Below, piece by piece: positions 12,369 to 30,803 of a stretch of DNA of 35,287 nucleotides. This DNA comes from an uncultured Bacilli bacterium (GTDB lineage Bacteria; Bacillota_I; Bacilli_A; RF39; UBA660). Numbering within the stretch: position 1 is the first letter of the stretch; each line of letters begins with the position of its first letter. A program made the position numbers and the translations under genes. A model generated the notes under the pieces. It was not told the origin of the DNA and ran no database searches. It worked only from the letters and a program-made list of their open reading frames with translations. The stretch lies in assembly GCA_947629135.1 (NCBI GenBank), contig CANRCN010000007.1, positions 1 through 35,287 on the forward strand, written 5' to 3'.

Positions 12369-12809
12369 ATGTTAGAAGGTAAATTACAAATTAAAAAATT
12401 AGATGAAAGAGCAACTATTCCAACTTATGGAACCGTTGATTCAGCTGCAGCTGATTTATATGCAGTTTTAGATAAAGAAATTACAATTGAACCAGGAGAA
12501 ATGGTCATGATTGGAACTGGTTTATCAATGGCAATTCCAAGAGGATATGCTGGGTTAATATATGCAAGAAGTTCTCTAGGCAGTAAAAAAGGTCTTGCAC
12601 CTGCTAATAAAGTTGGAGTAATTGATGCAGATTATAGAGGCGAAGTTAAAATACCTTTATATAATCATTCTAAAACTCCTCAAACAGTAAGTCCTAATGA
12701 AAGAATTGCTCAAATGATAATTACACCTTATTTAAAAGCTAATTTTGAAGAAACTTTAGAATTAGATGAAACCGATAGAGGAACTGGAGGATTTGGTTCA
12801 ACCAACTAA
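12369..12809 (+). CDS. dut: Deoxyuridine 5'-triphosphate nucleotidohydrolase (dUTPase)
   Basis: dUTPase hydrolyses dUTP to dUMP and pyrophosphate, keeping uracil out of DNA and feeding dTMP synthesis. All five motifs of the trimeric family are present: SAAADLYA (25-32), GLIYARSSLGSKKGL (62-76), NKVGVIDADYRGE (80-92), NERIAQMII (110-118) and the C-terminal RGTGGFGSTN (137-146). The length of 146 residues is typical. ATG 12369 is preferred to 12360, because AGGAG (12355-12359) is 9 nt upstream of the former and touches the latter. It lies 2 nt after nrdG, completing a nucleotide-metabolism operon. Confidence 0.96.
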   Translation: MLEGKLQIKKLDERATIPTYGTVDSAAADLYAVLDKEITIEPGEMVMIGTGLSMAIPRGYAGLIYARSSLGSKKGLAPANKVGVIDADYRGEVKIPLYNHSKTPQTVSPNERIAQMIITPYLKANFEETLELDETDRGTGGFGSTN

Positions 12810-12820
12810 ATCTTTTTTTC

Positions 12821-12849
12821 TTGCTTTTTTTACATATATAGTATATAAT
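12821..12849 (+). promoter_or_regulatory. Promoter of the triplicated-family operon
   Basis: TTGCTT (12821-12826) and TATAAT (12844-12849) are 17 nt apart. CTTGCT (12820-12825) and AGCAAG (12852-12857) form an inverted repeat that spans the whole promoter, a possible operator. Confidence 0.55.
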
Positions 12850-12875
12850 ATAGCAAGGAAAAAGGGGGAATTACC

Positions 12876-13925
12876 ATGCAACTAAAAAGATATGATGAAA
12901 ATACAATCAAAAATAAAGGAGAAAAAGTTTATACTGAATACCTTAAATTAATAAAATCAGGAAATATTCAAGTTGGACTTGAAGTAGCTTTAGATAACTT
13001 AAAAATGAATCGAACTAAATTTATTTCTATTTTAATGCAATACATTGAAAGACAAGATGAAGCTGATGATTATTCAAGAGTCTTTGCTGAACTATTAAGT
13101 AGTTCAGATCCAAGACAGTACCTAAAAGATAATAATATTCCAGCTGATTTTTTAAGTTCTAATCTAAATAATTATTTATATTATAAAAGACCAGATATTT
13201 TATTTGGTAATAAAAATATTTTAAAAATTCTAAATTCTCTTATTGAATATAATAATAAATTATGGAGAGAAAGAGAAAAAGAAATTAAAGATAAAGAAAC
13301 TATTTTACCATTTGTAGAAAATATTATTCAAGAATTTTTAAATCAAGATTATTCACTTGAAAGATTTTGTATTCAAAAAAATATTGGTAAAAACTTATTA
13401 AATCCAAGTGATGGTTATTATATAAGAGAACTTGCATTATACAATAAAGAATTATATCAAAAATTTATAGATGATATTACGATAAGAGAAAGTAATAAAA
13501 ATAAAACTATCCAAGATGATATTTATAAAATTCTTACTATGCTAAAAGATAATATCAATCTTGATTCTATAGACTTCTATTTAGCAACCAAATATGGCCC
13601 AGTAGAATTTATAGAAAAAGCTGAAGCTATATTACCAATTGAAGATTCTAGAATAATTAGAGATTTTATTAATAAATTTAAATATGGATATATAACCAAT
13701 TATAGAAAATGTAATTTAAGACAAGAATTAATAAATGATAAATATACTATAAACATTAATGGTACTTTAGTTGAAACAACACCTGAAGACAGAAGCGAAA
13801 TATTAGATTTCTTAGAAGAAAATTTTATACCTATTACTTCAATGACTGTTTTTCAAGATGCTTGTAAAAGATACTATAGAAATGAACTATTAAATTCTAA
13901 AGCAAGGAGCATACAACATGACTAA
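12876..13925 (+). CDS. Triplicated helical family, paralogue 1 (349 aa)
   Basis: I do not recognise this family; its two neighbours are full-length paralogues. Shared blocks, in order, are an N-terminal YxEYLKxxK helix, a helix pair ending QYIER, and NNIPADFL...YYKRPD (about 86-107). Next come the most conserved stretch DYSLERFCIQKNIG (158-171), an IDFYLATKYGPVEFIEKA segment, and a C-terminal VETTPEDR (299-306) followed by FIPITSMTVFQDACKRYY. Several blocks have the helix-turn-helix look of short DNA-binding modules, but no catalytic motif, signal or membrane segment is visible. GGGGG precedes the ATG. Its stop overlaps the next start by 8 nt. Confidence 0.7.
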   Translation: MQLKRYDENTIKNKGEKVYTEYLKLIKSGNIQVGLEVALDNLKMNRTKFISILMQYIERQDEADDYSRVFAELLSSSDPRQYLKDNNIPADFLSSNLNNYLYYKRPDILFGNKNILKILNSLIEYNNKLWREREKEIKDKETILPFVENIIQEFLNQDYSLERFCIQKNIGKNLLNPSDGYYIRELALYNKELYQKFIDDITIRESNKNKTIQDDIYKILTMLKDNINLDSIDFYLATKYGPVEFIEKAEAILPIEDSRIIRDFINKFKYGYITNYRKCNLRQELINDKYTININGTLVETTPEDRSEILDFLEENFIPITSMTVFQDACKRYYRNELLNSKARSIQHD

Positions 13926-14928
13926 TTTATATACTATAAGCAATTTAATTTATAAAGATTATTTACAAATGTTAAAAGATCATGATAATCCTATGGTTTG
14001 GTTTGAATTAACATCTTCTAAGTATCGAACTAATACGACTATCATTCTTAAAGTATTAAAACACTATATTGAAAACGAACTTGAAAAGCCCGAATTTGTA
14101 ACCATTTTTGAAAAAATTGATGAATTAGAAAATCCATATGAATATCTTTATTTCAACAATATAACTCCAGCCTATTTAAAAGAACATTTAGAAGAATATC
14201 TAATTTACTACAGACCAGAATATAAACTTAGATCTGATAATAAACTAATGAATAACTATAGAGGAATTATAGCTAAATATGCTAAATATTATCAAAGTCA
14301 AACAAATATAAAAATGGAAACTGAATATAAAAAAATAATTCTTGAATTTATAAATTCTAATTATAGTTTAGAAAGATTCTGTATTTTTAAAGGATTATCT
14401 TTAAACGATTTTAATTATAAAAGAAATGGTATTTATATTAAAGCTATGAAAAATGATCCTGAATTATATTCTAGATATCTATCTTATTTAGAAGAAAAAA
14501 ATAAAAAAGAAATTATTCAAGGTGAAGTTAAAAAAGTTTTAGAAGCTATTTATACCTTAGGAAATGATTTTTCTATAATTGATTTATTTTTAATAACAAA
14601 CTATGGTGTACTTGAATTAATTAAAGAATCAGATAATATCTTAGCAAATGATGATTTAAAGATATTTAGAAAATATATGGATAGTTGTTATAGAGAATAT
14701 ACATTATATGGTAATTTCACGGATAATAATAAAATTAATATGTTAATAACAACACCTTATAGTATTTTTATAGATAATAATTTAGTCGAAACAAGTGAAG
14801 AAGATAGATATCAAGCTATTAACTTTTTAATAACTAACAAAATTCCTATAAATCAAAAAACATTTGAAACAGTATTAAAAAGATTTTATAAAGATAAAAA
14901 GATAAGAAAGAAGGATAAATATGAGTAA
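13918..14928 (+). CDS. Triplicated helical family, paralogue 2 (336 aa)
   Basis: Paralogue of the flanking genes, aligned end to end without large gaps. It has YKDYLQMLK, KHYIEN, NNITPAYLKEHLEEYLIYYRPE (80-101), NYSLERFCIFKGLS (148-161), IDLFLITNYGVLELIKES and LVETSEEDR with KIPINQKTFETVLKRFY near the C-terminus. The basic tail (KKIRKKDK) contrasts with paralogue 1. It starts inside the preceding gene (ATGACTAA, 8-nt overlap), so translation is probably coupled. Its function is unknown. Divergence between the copies is large, so the duplication is old or fast-evolving. Confidence 0.7.
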   Translation: MTNLYTISNLIYKDYLQMLKDHDNPMVWFELTSSKYRTNTTIILKVLKHYIENELEKPEFVTIFEKIDELENPYEYLYFNNITPAYLKEHLEEYLIYYRPEYKLRSDNKLMNNYRGIIAKYAKYYQSQTNIKMETEYKKIILEFINSNYSLERFCIFKGLSLNDFNYKRNGIYIKAMKNDPELYSRYLSYLEEKNKKEIIQGEVKKVLEAIYTLGNDFSIIDLFLITNYGVLELIKESDNILANDDLKIFRKYMDSCYREYTLYGNFTDNNKINMLITTPYSIFIDNNLVETSEEDRYQAINFLITNKIPINQKTFETVLKRFYKDKKIRKKDKYE

Positions 14929-15949
14929 TAATAAAATTATAACAACTGATAAAGAAATAGTTGCTTATCATGAATATATAACTTATTTAAAAGAAAATCC
15001 TAATAATATAGAAGGTTTATATGATGTAATAGATACTTTAGGATGGCCTCAACAAGAATTCTTTGATTCACTTATTAATTATATAAATAAAAATATAGTT
15101 AAACCTAGATATGCTCTTGCATTTGATGAAATTTTAGAAACTATTATTTGTAACAATGATAAAAATATTTATATGAGTCTTAGAAAACAAGGTATTTCTC
15201 CAGATGAACTTCATTTAAATCTAGGTAAATATCTTACTTACTTCAGACCAGATATCAATTATACTAACAGATATTTACCTAAAATATTAGAAATTTTAAG
15301 AAATTATACAGATTATTTAAAATTAATAGTTGAAAAAGATAGAACTCTTAAAGAAAAAACAGCATATACAGCCAATCATATAATGGATTTTCTTAATTCC
15401 CCTTATAGTTTAGAAAGATTCTTCATGCCAAGAAAAATTTCTTCAACAGAGTTTATTAGAAGATATGCTAATCCATTAAAACATAATAATCCTGAACTTT
15501 ATAATAAATTAGAAGAAAATATCATGATAAAAAAAGAAGTTAAAAAAGCAACTATTAAAAATGATGTCTTATTAATATTAAATTTAATTAAAGAATTAGG
15601 AGCAGATTTTACTTGTATTGATTTATTTAAAAATACTTTATTTAGTCCTAAAGAATTAGTTAAAGCAGCTGATGGATTTCTTAATCCAGAAGATTTAAGG
15701 TTATTTAGAACTAGAATTAATCGTTATGGATCAGGTGATTTCATGGGATCAATTCTAGGTGAACTTAGAATAAAAAATTTTATTAATTCCCAATTTGCTA
15801 TTACAATTAATGGAGAATTATATGAAACTTCTGAACAAGAAAGAGAAATAGTTATTAATGATTTAAAAGATTATTGTATACCTGTAACCTCTGAAACTAT
15901 AATGGATGATTTTAAGAAATTAAAGAAAGAAAAGCATTTAATTAAATAA
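14921..15949 (+). CDS. Triplicated helical family, paralogue 3 (342 aa)
   Basis: Third member of the tandem set. It carries YHEYITYLK, INYINK, QGISPDELHLNLGKYLTYFRPD (90-111), PYSLERFFMPRKIS (161-174; Cys replaced by Phe in the core), IDLFKNTLFSPKELVKAADGFL and YETSEQER with CIPVTSETIMDDFKKL. It overlaps paralogue 2 by 8 nt (ATGAGTAA) and ends at a terminator, so the three form one coupled operon. Equal lengths and strict gene order suggest that the three proteins assemble together or act on similar targets. That is an inference. Confidence 0.7.
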   Translation: MSNNKIITTDKEIVAYHEYITYLKENPNNIEGLYDVIDTLGWPQQEFFDSLINYINKNIVKPRYALAFDEILETIICNNDKNIYMSLRKQGISPDELHLNLGKYLTYFRPDINYTNRYLPKILEILRNYTDYLKLIVEKDRTLKEKTAYTANHIMDFLNSPYSLERFFMPRKISSTEFIRRYANPLKHNNPELYNKLEENIMIKKEVKKATIKNDVLLILNLIKELGADFTCIDLFKNTLFSPKELVKAADGFLNPEDLRLFRTRINRYGSGDFMGSILGELRIKNFINSQFAITINGELYETSEQEREIVINDLKDYCIPVTSETIMDDFKKLKKEKHLIK

Positions 15950-15960
15950 ATGTTTTTTTT
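15935..15960 (+). terminator. Terminator of the triplicated operon
   Basis: CATTTA (15935-15940) pairs with TAAATG (15947-15952) and is followed by eight T. It overlaps the stop codon of paralogue 3. Confidence 0.7.
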
Positions 15961-16002: not shown

Positions 16003-16632
16003 ATGAAAGATAATATTTATATTGTTAAAAAAGGAGATAATTTATATGATATAGCCAATAAACATAATACAACTGTTGGGATATTAAAAGCTTTAAATAA
16101 TTTAAATTCTAATTTTTTACAAATAGGTCAAGAATTAAAATTACCAACAACTATAGTTGAAGAATCTCTTCCAAGTGATTATATTATTTATACAATTAAA
16201 CCTAATGATAACTTATATAGTATTGCTCAAAAATATGGAATTACTTTAGAAGAATTAATTAATTTTAATGAACAAGGTACTACTCTTCTCAATATTGGAG
16301 ATCAATTACTTGTTCCAGTTAAAGGTGAAAATAATAATTTAACTTACGTAGTATCTCCAGGTGATACTTTATATAATATTGCTAAACGTTATAATACTAC
16401 AGTTGATGAGTTAAAAAAAGTTAATAATTTAGATAATAATTTATTAAAGATAGGAGAAACTTTGATTATACCAGAATCTAATAATTATCAAACTTATGTC
16501 GTTAAAGATAATGATACTTTAGATAGTATATCAAACTATTTTAATATATCAAAAGAAGATATAAAAAAAGCTAATAATATGTTAACTGATGATATATTAA
16601 TAGGACAAATAATGGTAATACCAAAAAAATAG
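16003..16632 (+). CDS. Four-LysM protein
   Basis: This 209-residue protein is made of four LysM modules and little else, at about 5-48, 62-106, 114-157 and 163-207. Each has the Y-x-V-K/S-x-G/N-D-x-L-x-x-I-A pattern and ends in an ...IGQxLxxP strand. LysM binds N-acetylglucosamine-containing glycans such as peptidoglycan or spore cortex. There is no signal peptide, membrane helix or attached hydrolase. In sporulating Firmicutes such proteins (SafA or YaaH type) reach the spore without Sec export, so a forespore or mother-cell location is possible. GAGGTG precedes the ATG, and TATAAT lies at 15982-15987. Confidence 0.9.
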   Translation: MKDNIYIVKKGDNLYDIANKHNTTVGILKALNNLNSNFLQIGQELKLPTTIVEESLPSDYIIYTIKPNDNLYSIAQKYGITLEELINFNEQGTTLLNIGDQLLVPVKGENNNLTYVVSPGDTLYNIAKRYNTTVDELKKVNNLDNNLLKIGETLIIPESNNYQTYVVKDNDTLDSISNYFNISKEDIKKANNMLTDDILIGQIMVIPKK

Positions 16633-19226: not shown

Positions 19227-20156
19227 TCAATCTAAATTTTTTAAATCATAATAATTCTTTGGGAATCCCATTCTATCTAGTACTTTATCAATACTTATTG
19301 TATGTAAATTTAATGATAAGTTTTCTAGATTATGAGCAAATTCCTCAATCAAATTAGAAAATTCTTCATGTGATAACATTTGTTTCATTATAATAATTAA
19401 AGCAAATACGTCAGATTTTCCATAGATATATTCATCATCCATAATTGGAATATTCAATAATTTATGATATTTATTATCCTCTATTTGTCTTTGAGTTTTA
19501 TTTTCATAGACAATATCTTCATGAGCACATAAATTACGATAATTAGATAAAATTGTTAAATAGTTAATTAAAGTATCTACTTCTAAATTATATATTTCAG
19601 CAACTCCAAGCTGATCTTCTTTTTTTAATATAGAATATAATTCTCCAACTATTCCAAATGATAATACTTTTACTAAAACCCATAAAGGAATATAACCATA
19701 GTTATTAACATAATGCATTGTTGCTGAATGTTGAGTAGCATTAATGTTAATTTGTCTTTTCATTTTCTTTAAAATATCATTAACTTGTCTTACTTTTTCT
19801 TTATTAGCAGTAAAGTTCTTAGGTGTTAAATAATCTCTTTCTTTATAACCATATTTTAAAGATAATTGATAACTAATTATAGATTTTATATTATTTTCAA
19901 TCATCAATATATTTTTAAATAAAATATTTCTAAAGGTTCTATCAAATAAAAACAAACTATAAAGTTCTTCAAATGTTGTTCCCTCTATATATCGCTTATC
20001 AACACTACTTCGCATGAACAAATGCCTATAACCATTTAAAAAGAAATAATTTTCTCTAAACAATACTTCTTTGGCATATTCAGGATTTTCAACCACTAAT
20101 CCTTTATTTTTTAGTATCTCTATCTGTTCTTCTAATGTCTTAAACTCCTTTTTCAT
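19227..20156 (-). CDS. Abi_2-family (AbiD/AbiF-like) HEPN protein
   Basis: This 309-residue cytoplasmic protein matches the Abi_2 family of phage abortive-infection proteins. It has an N-terminal LEEQIEILKNKGL, then YFFLNGYRH, and the core LFLFDRTFRNILFKNILMIENNIKS (about 68-92). The HEPN ribonuclease motif R-x4-H is YRNLCAHED with Arg207 and His212. Family members are thought to arrest translation by RNA cleavage, some as toxins or as ancestors of Cas13. AGGAG precedes the ATG. Its TGA stop is embedded in the htrA ribosome binding site. No obvious antitoxin is adjacent; HtrA or the upstream DUF308 protein are the only neighbours on this strand. Defence activity is an inference from the family. 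Confidence 0.85.
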   Translation of the reverse strand: MKKEFKTLEEQIEILKNKGLVVENPEYAKEVLFRENYFFLNGYRHLFMRSSVDKRYIEGTTFEELYSLFLFDRTFRNILFKNILMIENNIKSIISYQLSLKYGYKERDYLTPKNFTANKEKVRQVNDILKKMKRQININATQHSATMHYVNNYGYIPLWVLVKVLSFGIVGELYSILKKEDQLGVAEIYNLEVDTLINYLTILSNYRNLCAHEDIVYENKTQRQIEDNKYHKLLNIPIMDDEYIYGKSDVFALIIIMKQMLSHEEFSNLIEEFAHNLENLSLNLHTISIDKVLDRMGFPKNYYDLKNLD

Positions 20157-27197: not shown

Positions 27198-28280
27198 ATG
27201 TTAAGAGTTTTTGAAGCTTTTTCTGGTGTAGGTGCTCAATGTATGGCCTTAAGAAATCTAGAAAAAGAATATAAAGTAGTAGCAACCTGTGATATTGATG
27301 AATCTGCAACTCTTGCATATTATCATACTCATGCGAATAATAAAAAAAGTAACAAAAAATATAATGATAATAAAAAAAAAGAATTTATAATTAATAGAGG
27401 GATCGGAAATAAATCTAGAATAATGAAAATGAATTCTGAAACATTAGAAACATTATTTAATGCAGTAGATGTTTGCAATAATTTAGGAGATATTACTAAA
27501 TTAGAGGTAAAAGATATTCCTGATCATGATTTATTTACTTACTCATTTCCATGTCAAGATATTTCTTCTGTTGGAACTCAAAAAGGATTAGATATTGGAA
27601 GTGGTACAAGAAGTTCATTATTGTGGGAATGTAAAAAAATAATAGAAAATAAAAAACCAAAATATTTATTATTAGAAAATGTTAAAAATTTGACAACTGG
27701 TAAAAATAAAAAAAATTTTAATGATTGGCTTACTTATTTAGAAAAACAAGGATACACAAATTATTGGAAAATATTCGATGCAAAAGATTATGGAATTCCT
27801 CAAAGAAGACCAAGAGTTATTGTAGTTTCTAAATACGGAACATGTCATACTAATTTAATTAAAAATAATGAATTAAAAGTTAAAAAAAATATAAATGATA
27901 TAATAGATTTTAATGAAAAAGGATGGAAAAAATTTACACCAAAATCAGAAATAAAAGGTAATGTAAAAGAAGGATGCTATGCCTTTTTAGATGATCGTGA
28001 TTGGAAAAGAAATGGTGTAATGATTAGTAAAGTTTGTTCAACCCAAAGAGCAGGTCGAACTGGTTTAAAATTAATAAAAAATGAAAATGGACAATTATTT
28101 GAAAGAAAATTAAATGCATTAGAATGTTGTAGACTAATGGGATATAATGATTCAGATTATTATAATATGAAAAAAGGCAAATTATCCGATGGACAAATAA
28201 TGAAAATCTGTGGTAATTCAATAGTAGTAAATGTCTTAATGAATGTTTTTCAAAACATATATGAGGAGGAAGCAATATGA
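27198..28280 (+). CDS. DNA (cytosine-5-)-methyltransferase, subunit 1 of a restriction-modification operon
   Basis: This 360-residue m5C methyltransferase has the motifs in order: I FEAFSGVGAQ (5-14), IV SFPCQDIS (catalytic Cys119), VI LLLENV (ENV 160-162), VIII QRRPR (202-206), a variable target-recognition region, IX RKLNALECCRLMGY and X KICGNSIVVNVL. An insertion rich in Lys and Asn (about 46-78) separates motifs II and III. It methylates one strand of the protected site. AAGGA lies 9-10 nt before the ATG. Its TGA stop overlaps the next start (ATGA). Confidence 0.95.
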   Translation: MLRVFEAFSGVGAQCMALRNLEKEYKVVATCDIDESATLAYYHTHANNKKSNKKYNDNKKKEFIINRGIGNKSRIMKMNSETLETLFNAVDVCNNLGDITKLEVKDIPDHDLFTYSFPCQDISSVGTQKGLDIGSGTRSSLLWECKKIIENKKPKYLLLENVKNLTTGKNKKNFNDWLTYLEKQGYTNYWKIFDAKDYGIPQRRPRVIVVSKYGTCHTNLIKNNELKVKKNINDIIDFNEKGWKKFTPKSEIKGNVKEGCYAFLDDRDWKRNGVMISKVCSTQRAGRTGLKLIKNENGQLFERKLNALECCRLMGYNDSDYYNMKKGKLSDGQIMKICGNSIVVNVLMNVFQNIYEEEAI

Positions 28281-29380
28281 TAAATGGATTATCACTTTTT
28301 TCTAATGTTGGAATTGGAGAATTATTATTAAATAAATGTGGAATAAATATTGTGGTTGCTAATGAAATAAAAAAAGACAGAGTTAAATTTTATAAACATG
28401 TCTATCCTAAATGTGAAATAATACAAGGAGATATTAATGATCATTATGAAGAAATAATAAATGCTGCCAAAAGAAACAATTGTAAATTTTTAATAGCAAC
28501 CCCTCCATGTCAAGGAATGAGTATAGCAGGAAAAAGAGATTACTCAGATAGTAGAAATACTTTAATAATTCCTGTTTTAAATGCCATAAAAGATTTAGAT
28601 CCTGACTATGTACTAATCGAAAATGTTCCTCAAATACTCAAATTAAAAATTAGTTACAATAAAACTCATGATACAGTTGAAAACATAATTAAAAAAGAAT
28701 TTGGGAAAAAATATAATATAAATGATAATAAGATAATAAATGCACAAGAATATGGTGTACCACAAAATAGAAAAAGAGCTATAATATTATTAAATAAAAA
28801 AAATAAATGGGAATTTCCTAAAAAAGATAATAAAATTGTAACTGTTAGAGATACTATAGGAAATCTTCCAAGTGTTGAAGCTATTATTGATGGAAACATT
28901 AATTATTTTGTTGGTAATGACAAAAAAATAGAAGAATGCAAAAAAGTACATAAATGGCATGTCCCTAGAGAACACTCATTAAGACATGTTGAAATAATGC
29001 AACACACACCTACAGGACATTCTGCATTTGAAAATAAAATATATTATCCTAAAAAGATAGATGGTACTCGTGTTAAGGGATACAATACTACCTATAAAAG
29101 AATGGAATGGGATAAACCAGCCCCTACTATAACTATGGCAAATGGTAGCATTTCTTCACAATGTAATGTTCATCCTGGAAGATTAAATAAAGATGGTACC
29201 TATAGTGATGCAAGAGTACTAACAATTTATGAAATAATGAAATTATTTACAATACCTGATGATTGGAATATACCTGAATGGGCAAATGATAATTTTATAC
29301 GAAAAGTTATTGGAGAAGGTATTCCACCATTATTAATATATAAAATAGTAAGTAATATGGATGGTGATAATAATGAATAA
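28277..29380 (+). CDS. DNA (cytosine-5-)-methyltransferase, subunit 2 of a restriction-modification operon
   Basis: The second m5C methyltransferase is 367 residues. Motif I is SLFSNVGIGELLL, IV TPPCQGMS (Cys78), VI LIENV (ENV 115-117), VIII QNRKRAII (163-170), then APTITMANG, and a degenerate motif X, GEGIPPLL. It differs widely from subunit 1, so it is not a recent duplicate and likely reads a different half or strand of the site. Two m5C enzymes with one nuclease is the arrangement expected for an asymmetric recognition sequence, such as that of type IIS systems. It overlaps its neighbours by 4 nt upstream and 8 nt downstream. Confidence 0.93.
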   Translation: MINGLSLFSNVGIGELLLNKCGINIVVANEIKKDRVKFYKHVYPKCEIIQGDINDHYEEIINAAKRNNCKFLIATPPCQGMSIAGKRDYSDSRNTLIIPVLNAIKDLDPDYVLIENVPQILKLKISYNKTHDTVENIIKKEFGKKYNINDNKIINAQEYGVPQNRKRAIILLNKKNKWEFPKKDNKIVTVRDTIGNLPSVEAIIDGNINYFVGNDKKIEECKKVHKWHVPREHSLRHVEIMQHTPTGHSAFENKIYYPKKIDGTRVKGYNTTYKRMEWDKPAPTITMANGSISSQCNVHPGRLNKDGTYSDARVLTIYEIMKLFTIPDDWNIPEWANDNFIRKVIGEGIPPLLIYKIVSNMDGDNNE

Positions 29381-30803
29381 AGATGTATGGTTATTTCCTC
29401 AAAATTCTTGTGATATAAATCAATTCTTTGTAACATTAAATGTGTTTGGTAAATTAAATGGAATTAGCCGCAAAGAAAATGTACAACAATTACTTATGGA
29501 ACAACATTCAAAAATGGGTACATATAATCCACATATAAAAACAAATTTTTATGATTTTTCTTCTGCTAATCATAAAATTGATGAACCTCGTTTTTATGGA
29601 GCTATCTATGAAACATCAAACAAAAAAATTCATGTTAGTTCATATGGAGAATTATTATTAAAATATGAACATGATGAAATAAAAAGAAATAAAGTTTTTA
29701 TTGGAATGATTTTTAATATTCAATTTGATAATCCTTATAAAAAAATGAAAGGTTTTGATATATATCCATTACGACTTATATTTAAATTACTTACTGATAG
29801 CAAATTGAATTATAAATTAACAAATATAGAGGTTTCAGAAATACTTTATTATATAAAATCAGTTAAGAATAAAAATGATTATGATAATATTGTTAACAAA
29901 ATACTTGAATTTAGAAACACTAGTATGGAAAAAACTGTCGAAACATTAATTAGTGATGTAACTCAATTTATAAAGAATTATATTAGTTGTAATTATTTGT
30001 TTAACATTTTATCAGATATGAATATTACTATTCAAGAAAAATCTAGTAAACATTTTCCAATGCAATCTAAAGTCAGAAAAGATCCAACAATAATTACACC
30101 AAGAACATTTAAATTAACTTCAAATTTAAAAGAATTCGTTAATAAGTATTTATCTGAAATATCTTTGTATGAAGAAACAAAGAAACCTAATGGACTTAGA
30201 AGTGACTGGATAAGAGATATTTATAATAGTGTTCCAGAAATTTTGCTACATGAAATAGAAGAAAAAGAAGATATGTATACAGAATATCTTCAGATTCCTA
30301 AATTACTTGTTGAAACTTCAATTAATCCTGATAAATGGTCTAAATTTGAAGAATATATTACAAAAAGTTTCAATCTATTTGAAGATATTAATGCTGAAAC
30401 AATTGGAGGCCCTGGACAACCTGATTCTCTATGCCATTATTTAAAAGAAGATATTATTTTCTGTGCTGATGGTAAATCTACCCATAAGAAATTATCAAGT
30501 ATTAATGATGGAAGACTAAAACAACATAGAACATTGTACAATGCAAAATATACAATTATAGTTACACCTGGATATGTTCCAAGTGCAGTAGAAGATATTA
30601 AGGGTACTAACACCTGCATTATTACATCATATTGTTTTGCTGATTTAATAACAAAGTATATTTTCAAACTATATAAAAATCATGAAGAATGTAGTTATGA
30701 AATATTTAATAATTTAATTCTTAATAATCTTGGAACTGATTTAAGTGAAAAAATTTATTCAATTATAGATGATAAACTTGGTATTGATATTGATAATTTA
30801 TAA
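29373..30803 (+). CDS. Probable type IIS-like restriction endonuclease (PD-(D/E)XK candidate)
   Basis: This 476-residue protein follows two methyltransferases in a coupled operon, so it is most likely their nuclease. Its last third has the layout of a PD-(D/E)XK catalytic core: Glu327 in FEEYI, then GGPGQPD (Asp351), a 14-residue spacer and CADGKST (Asp366, Lys368). NAKYTIIVTPGYVPS follows as a further strand. The N-terminal two thirds (KDVWLFPQ..., EPRFYGAIYE) would carry the DNA-recognition domain. I recall AlwI-type enzymes having similar organisation, but cannot confirm it. ATG 29373 is chosen over 29361, with GGTGAT just before it. Confidence 0.65.
   Translation: MNKDVWLFPQNSCDINQFFVTLNVFGKLNGISRKENVQQLLMEQHSKMGTYNPHIKTNFYDFSSANHKIDEPRFYGAIYETSNKKIHVSSYGELLLKYEHDEIKRNKVFIGMIFNIQFDNPYKKMKGFDIYPLRLIFKLLTDSKLNYKLTNIEVSEILYYIKSVKNKNDYDNIVNKILEFRNTSMEKTVETLISDVTQFIKNYISCNYLFNILSDMNITIQEKSSKHFPMQSKVRKDPTIITPRTFKLTSNLKEFVNKYLSEISLYEETKKPNGLRSDWIRDIYNSVPEILLHEIEEKEDMYTEYLQIPKLLVETSINPDKWSKFEEYITKSFNLFEDINAETIGGPGQPDSLCHYLKEDIIFCADGKSTHKKLSSINDGRLKQHRTLYNAKYTIIVTPGYVPSAVEDIKGTNTCIITSYCFADLITKYIFKLYKNHEECSYEIFNNLILNNLGTDLSEKIYSIIDDKLGIDIDNL

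Follow-up and report, generated by a model that had tools for sequence, protein, structure and literature searches.

Three full-length members of one protein family stand side by side on one strand in a contig of an uncultured Bacilli bacterium (assembly GCA_947629135.1, contig CANRCN010000007.1; GTDB lineage Bacteria; Bacillota_I; Bacilli_A; RF39; UBA660). What kind of proteins these are, how three of them came to be kept together and what they might do are the questions raised by this locus, studied here within a stretch of 35,287 nucleotides (the window). The family – whose members at this locus we call X1, X2 and X3, or X where there is a single copy – is real, large, lineage-restricted and fast-evolving, while the claim that it consists of helix-turn-helix (HTH) proteins is weak. 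Our tentative preference, held with clearly less than even confidence, is for an operon of HTH arrays whose central module acts on nucleic acid, the three proteins forming a joint hetero-oligomer or representing three versions with different targets.

Three coupled genes in one transcription unit

The locus and its boundary markers comprise the following features.

12369-12809, + strand: dut (dUTPase), marks the left edge of the slot; 72-92% identity in genomes of the genus, where it invariably lies immediately 5' of X
12823-12866, + strand: sigma-A-like promoter (TTCTTGCTT...TATAAT) and ribosome-binding site 5' of X1, read by eye
12876-13925, + strand: X1 (copy 1), ORF of 349 aa; one clade of orthologues from five species, support 100/99
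13918-14928, + strand: X2 (copy 2), ORF of 336 aa; five-species clade, support 97/99; modelled, pLDDT 84.9
14921-15949, + strand: X3 (copy 3), ORF of 342 aa; five-species clade, support 100/98
about 15929-15958, + strand: intrinsic terminator of the triplet, 3' of X3; A/T-rich hairpin and U-run, -8.5 kcal/mol, z -4.0
16003-16632, + strand: four-LysM protein, marks the right edge of the slot and comes after X or X3 in almost all genomes of the genus; matches TIGR02899

An earlier note, made from the DNA letters, had described three full-length paralogues with shared blocks, joined by 8-nt overlaps between one promoter and one terminator, and this description is confirmed. The proteins can be aligned from end to end with 57 of 370 columns invariant, including YSLERF, Y-x-RP[DE] and ET-x(4)-R; identity to X1 is 34% for X2 and 32% for X3. 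Searched with X2, its own whole genome – a draft of 1.43 Mb in 114 contigs, 79% complete – returned X1 (at 3.9e-36) and X3 (at 1.2e-25) and nothing further, so that the relation among the three is not due to chance and the draft genome contains three copies.

Both junctions, X1/X2 and X2/X3, are overlaps of 8 nt (ATGACTAA and ATGAGTAA, respectively). Between dut and X1 lies a promoter of the form TTGCTT-N~17-TATAAT, followed by a purine-rich ribosome-binding site; it was recognised by eye and is missing from the list of an automatic consensus scan. A similar TTGN3-N~17-TATAAT element, also read by eye, is conserved before X or X1 in a comparison of 15 genomes. Single-copy relatives end in hairpins similar to the one after X3. 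X1-X3 have the layout of one operon of three diverged members of one family. No operator was found around its promoter: the flanking inverted repeat (TTTCTTGC...GCAAGGAAA) was considered for this role and rejected, as only the nearest species keeps the repeat and one side is altered in genome G157.

The slot in the genus and the origin of the triplet

The gene order nrdD-nrdG-dut-[X]-LysM-HtrA-Abi is kept across the genus, save for local insertions and gaps, and the family is present in 15 of 17 genus genomes. Ten of these have a single full copy of X in the dut-[X]-LysM slot, and five (G000, G153, G155, G157 and G158) have the triplet; locus L017 (CANRDV010000001.1, uncultured Bacilli bacterium), whose layout is that of G155, was counted with it as one genome. 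In G147 the slot is intact and empty – the end of dut is followed by a terminator and then by the start of the LysM gene – so a species can do without X genes. In G159 absence of X is not judgeable, the contig breaking off close to dut. The earlier note had spoken of strict triplication and had named a conserved triplet order in related genomes as support. What stands of this is the fixed order within a five-species clade, wherever the triplet exists; the triplet itself is not the conserved unit, since other species of the genus have a single copy and one has none.

Maximum-likelihood analysis of 25 rows puts X1, X2 and X3 each on one side of a branch (with the support listed above), and the four labels on the tree require only three changes. 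Judged from these sequences, the simplest reading is a single tandem triplication in the common ancestor of these five species, followed by vertical descent in fixed order; no conversion or reordering among the three is apparent in the tree. Because each forms one clade over five species, none has replaced another since the triplication. The junctions of the five triplets range from an 8-nt overlap to a gap of at most 10 nt, so tight coupling is conserved but the exact overlap is not.

The triplet genes also differ from their neighbours in rate. When the window was compared with G157 or G155 by the Nei-Gojobori method, dN was 0.19-0.33 for X1-X3 vs 0.05-0.11 for nrdD, dut and the LysM, HtrA and Abi genes – about 2-7 times as much non-synonymous change – while dS was similar in both sets, at about 0.4-0.8. 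The resulting dN/dS ratios, about 0.35-0.5 for X and about 0.06-0.14 for the neighbours, are rough, given a high dS and an extreme base composition. The X genes are under purifying selection, yet evolve much faster than their surroundings.

Several smaller observations concern the slot and its vicinity. In G156 (L047:706-2091), an additional N-terminal half of X is fused in frame before the full copy, a partial duplication within one ORF. Two triplet species (L035:3751-6849 and L036:9529-11742) have a large gene inserted between dut and X1, with a signal-like stretch at its start or an LPxTG-like anchor at its end. A conserved CATATAATTAAA element directly precedes the ribosome-binding site of the LysM gene in many species. 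The Abi_2-family protein (PF07751; window 19227-20156), of the abortive-infection type, is a stable neighbour in the genus at 82-90% identity, which is unusual for a defence gene. Further along (window 27198-30803), two C-5 cytosine methyltransferases and then an AlwI-like restriction endonuclease make up a restriction-modification system, which is also found near the triplet in G153 (L037:718-4353), at a different distance.

The wider family

How far the family was seen to extend depended on the profile used to search for it. A profile of X1-X3 alone found members in 12 of 145 genomes of the GTDB family and a 17-row profile in 38 of 193, whereas a 57-row profile of the C-terminal ~200 aa found them in 76 of 241 genomes of the order, spread over 35 of 92 genera; as the counts rise with profile quality, they are lower bounds. 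Small, A/T-rich genomes and a class shared with genomes in which TGA is read as tryptophan fit the placement of this order as RF39. In a phylum-wide sample of 195 genomes, the profile search gave no credible member beyond the family's own group, and its weak matches – a P-type ATPase, a LacI-type regulator and a MurE-like enzyme – were dismissed as chance.

Members are found in unrelated slots, whether alone, in twos or in clusters of at least four genes. Tandem arrays are recurrent, with pairs in G054 and G190 and several members at one place in G242. Lengths range from about 145 to 810 aa, the N-terminus being variable and the C-terminal ~200 aa conserved. G122 has an independent array of four tandem members (348, 350, 549 and 354 aa) between rplT and gyrB (L091:2896-7752). 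One ORF of 308 aa in G200 (L081:5476-6399) holds just two tandem C-terminal domains, so this domain can occur on its own and undergo duplication. Small Cys-rich or Met/Tyr-rich proteins are encoded near some divergent members (L090:3507-3863, L145:5054-5362 and L079:1562-1786), two of them adjacent.

Searches of Pfam, NCBIfam, PHROGs, PADLOC and PDB sequences, with single sequences and profiles, yielded scattered sub-threshold matches only. A match to a known family of single-copy proteins, which the earlier note had named as the finding that would speak against it, did not occur in these libraries, and its description of an unrecognised family is borne out by the lack of any profile match to a known one. 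X1-X3 had no match at all in NCBIfam, and hence none to its curated spore models. Among 25 + 34 members, Pfam gave no family-wide match and no transposase catalytic domain; Sigma70_r2 and Sigma70_r4 matched neither X1-X3 nor these relatives, the sole sigma-factor likeness being a region-3-like shape match (see below). In PADLOC-DB, 34 divergent members showed no consistent match (four models, one member each, the best at 0.0017), nor was there one in PHROGs. The sequences point to a large, fast-changing family that is apparently found only in this bacterial group and matches no named family.

That such a family lacks a name is of some consequence. It is in no curated library tried, yet members occur in roughly one in three genomes sampled from its order. 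That order is very common in the gut, and genomes as small as its own (1-2 Mb) rarely keep large unknown families; here up to seven copies are kept in one genome (G200). New to the libraries used here, the family may nonetheless have a mechanism of the familiar HTH kind. It may also be present, without annotation, in existing catalogues of unknown families from uncultivated taxa, such as that of the FESNov families (PMC10849945). Like these, it is limited to one uncultivated lineage and has no curated match; unlike them, it is not nearly universal in its own lineage and evolves fast, synapomorphic FESNov families being under stronger purifying selection (PMC10849945).

Predicted modules and possible roles

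X2 was modelled with AlphaFold2 from a six-row alignment that included its paralogues, giving a mean pLDDT of 84.9 and a pTM of 0.62. The earlier note's characterisation of the proteins as helical agrees with this model, which consists of helices throughout save for one β-hairpin near the C-terminus, and the shared fold that it had anticipated is consistent with a confident fold obtained with the paralogues in the alignment; X1 and X3 would share the predicted fold by virtue of their full-length homology. Neither the full model nor its C-terminal domain alone gave a Foldseek match with E below 0.001 in the PDB or BFVD, and rows for SOS and 14-3-3 were discarded at TM below 0.3. Three parts of X2 can be delimited.

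13927-14082, + strand: N-terminal HTH-like module, about residues 4-55; VIA-align matches of low Z
14323-14505, + strand: central HTH-like module with YSLERFC, about residues 136-196; lowest column entropy (1.49), basic, sub-threshold HTH matches in Pfam
14506-14925, + strand: C-terminal domain, about residues 197-336; common to the whole family, pLDDT 86.6 in a separate model

With VIA-align, the N-terminal module could be superposed on the small terminase 6ejq (Z 5.7, 1.7 A, 45 residues) and on region 3 of sigma70 in 6psq (Z 5.6, 2.9 A, 51 residues), and further on WhiG, SlmA and TetR-type regulators, all at Z 4-5.7; values under 8 are common for helical models, and these are too low to exclude a common arrangement of helices. 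The likeness to 6ejq, 6psq and WhiG (6pfj) would consist in a three-helix module of 45-51 residues superposable at 1.7-2.9 A, but it is confined to a single module at a Z of only 5-6, and X has neither a sequence relation to these proteins nor any other sigma or terminase feature.

The central module stands out in two ways: no helix of the family is better conserved than the one it contains, and no other module is basic in almost every copy. The consensus of this central module, NSNYSIERFCSKNGISKSKFKKYVKKLK (also written NSNYSIERFCSKNGISKSKFKKYVKKLKKYDPELYEKYLE), finds HTH families as its best Pfam matches – Mga HTH (PF05043; 0.0058), HTH_Tnp_1 (PF01527; 0.014) and HTH_28 (PF13518; 0.037) – all of them under the cut-off, with 16.0 bits against the curated 24.1 in the case of HTH_Tnp_1. 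It shares with them the sequence pattern of a helix, a G-I-S turn and a second helix, but differs in falling below every curated cut-off, in the absence of transposase or Mga domains elsewhere in the protein, and in being embedded in a helical chain of 340 aa with a family-specific C-terminus. The C-terminal domain, modelled alone, had no clear structural match. Evidence for repetition within the chain is slight: pairwise profile comparison gave a weak similarity between H1 and H2 (E 0.0007), the other pairs of modules being no better than chance or matching over fewer than 20 columns, and an internal repeat test gave 36 extra matches vs 24-28 in shuffled controls, a small excess. The several HTH-like segments of the earlier note thus come down to two weakly supported ones – the N-terminal by structure matches, the central by profile hints – and otherwise to predicted helices and pattern.

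As we tentatively picture them, the X proteins are soluble, nearly all-helical and lineage-restricted, each a short chain of HTH-type modules that would comprise, in order, an N-terminal module, a second module, a long helix, the basic central module with YSLERFC and the conserved C-terminal domain with its small β-hairpin. The central module would contact DNA (or RNA) and the remaining modules would contact partners. Because the proteins as a whole carry almost no net charge (pI 5.3-9.2), they are unlikely to bind DNA strongly over their full length. Co-translated, the three might work jointly in a hetero-oligomer or might be three versions that differ in their targets, the partners not being interchangeable; a multisubunit complex is suggested by the coupling of the genes and the retention of three diverged copies. 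Both the assembly of X1-X3 and their contact with nucleic acid are inferred, and their role would be regulatory or architectural. The proteins are probably cytoplasmic and would grip DNA or other proteins. A bolder version, which we consider doubtful, extends this to the family as a modular HTH-repeat system, with N-terminal modules that differ in number and type ahead of a fixed C-terminal domain; it would be an amplified, fast-evolving regulatory or architectural system of the whole order, with the triplet as an obligate heterotrimer.

A pure adapter role fits nearly as well as the HTH arrays, although we hold it, too, with less than even confidence. The X proteins would then be helical protein-protein adapters or scaffolds whose resemblance to HTHs reflects a common three-helix arrangement, with a variable N-terminus for different partners and a conserved C-terminus for a common one. 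Their near-neutral charge is in keeping with such a role, as are the wide variation of N-terminal length in a family that keeps its C-terminus and the structure matches for the middle and C-terminal parts, weak and mostly to helical proteins that do not bind DNA, such as type III gatekeepers and 14-3-3. These structure matches are, however, all weak and prove neither view, and the basic YSLERFC module – the most conserved of all, with an HTH-like sequence pattern – is less readily accommodated by adapters. If they are HTH arrays that bind nucleic acid, the X proteins would represent a new type of modular regulator from bacteria not yet culturable; otherwise, the family would be a new one of scaffold or spore proteins. 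For a first test, the evidence supplies defined constructs and residues.

The last-named option – a sporulation-linked set of lineage-specific, fast-changing proteins involved in spore formation or structure, next to a SafA-like gene – is rather improbable. RF39 is predicted to form spores (PMC10868615), and SpoIIP was found in 220 of 241 genomes of the order and 16 of 17 of the genus; X also occurs in three genomes without detected SpoIIP, however, and the association between the two is not significant (Fisher p 0.088). The downstream LysM protein, which has no obvious signal peptide, passes the TIGR02899 model (SafA/ExsA spore coat assembly) with 70.1 bits vs a cut-off of 67.85, but the conserved X promoter is sigma-A-like, not sigma-E/F/G/K-like. 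Two divergent members (in L090 and L145) are beside small Cys-rich proteins reminiscent of coat proteins, yet the small Cys-rich or Met/Tyr-rich neighbours match no NCBIfam model, spore families included, and most other members of the family are situated among housekeeping genes.

We give still less credence to a defence against phages or mobile elements, though it would account for fast evolution, patchiness, one loss and changes in copy number. The dN of the X genes is indeed high relative to that of their neighbours, the family is patchily distributed and amplified both in tandem and in scattered places, and it is cleanly absent from G147. Against this, no nuclease, NTPase or other effector domain and no consistent PADLOC match was found; a tblastn search with X2 found no member among 50,697 phage records and 72,556 plasmid records; and within the genus the slot descends vertically and is not a variable island. 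Least likely of all is a selfish or remnant family of decaying mobile-element genes (with transposase-like HTHs) lacking a host function: the central module does resemble transposase HTHs and members are scattered singly in unrelated slots, but there are no catalytic domains or viral or plasmid carriers among the search results, and the frames are intact over five species, in fixed order and with dN/dS well below 1.
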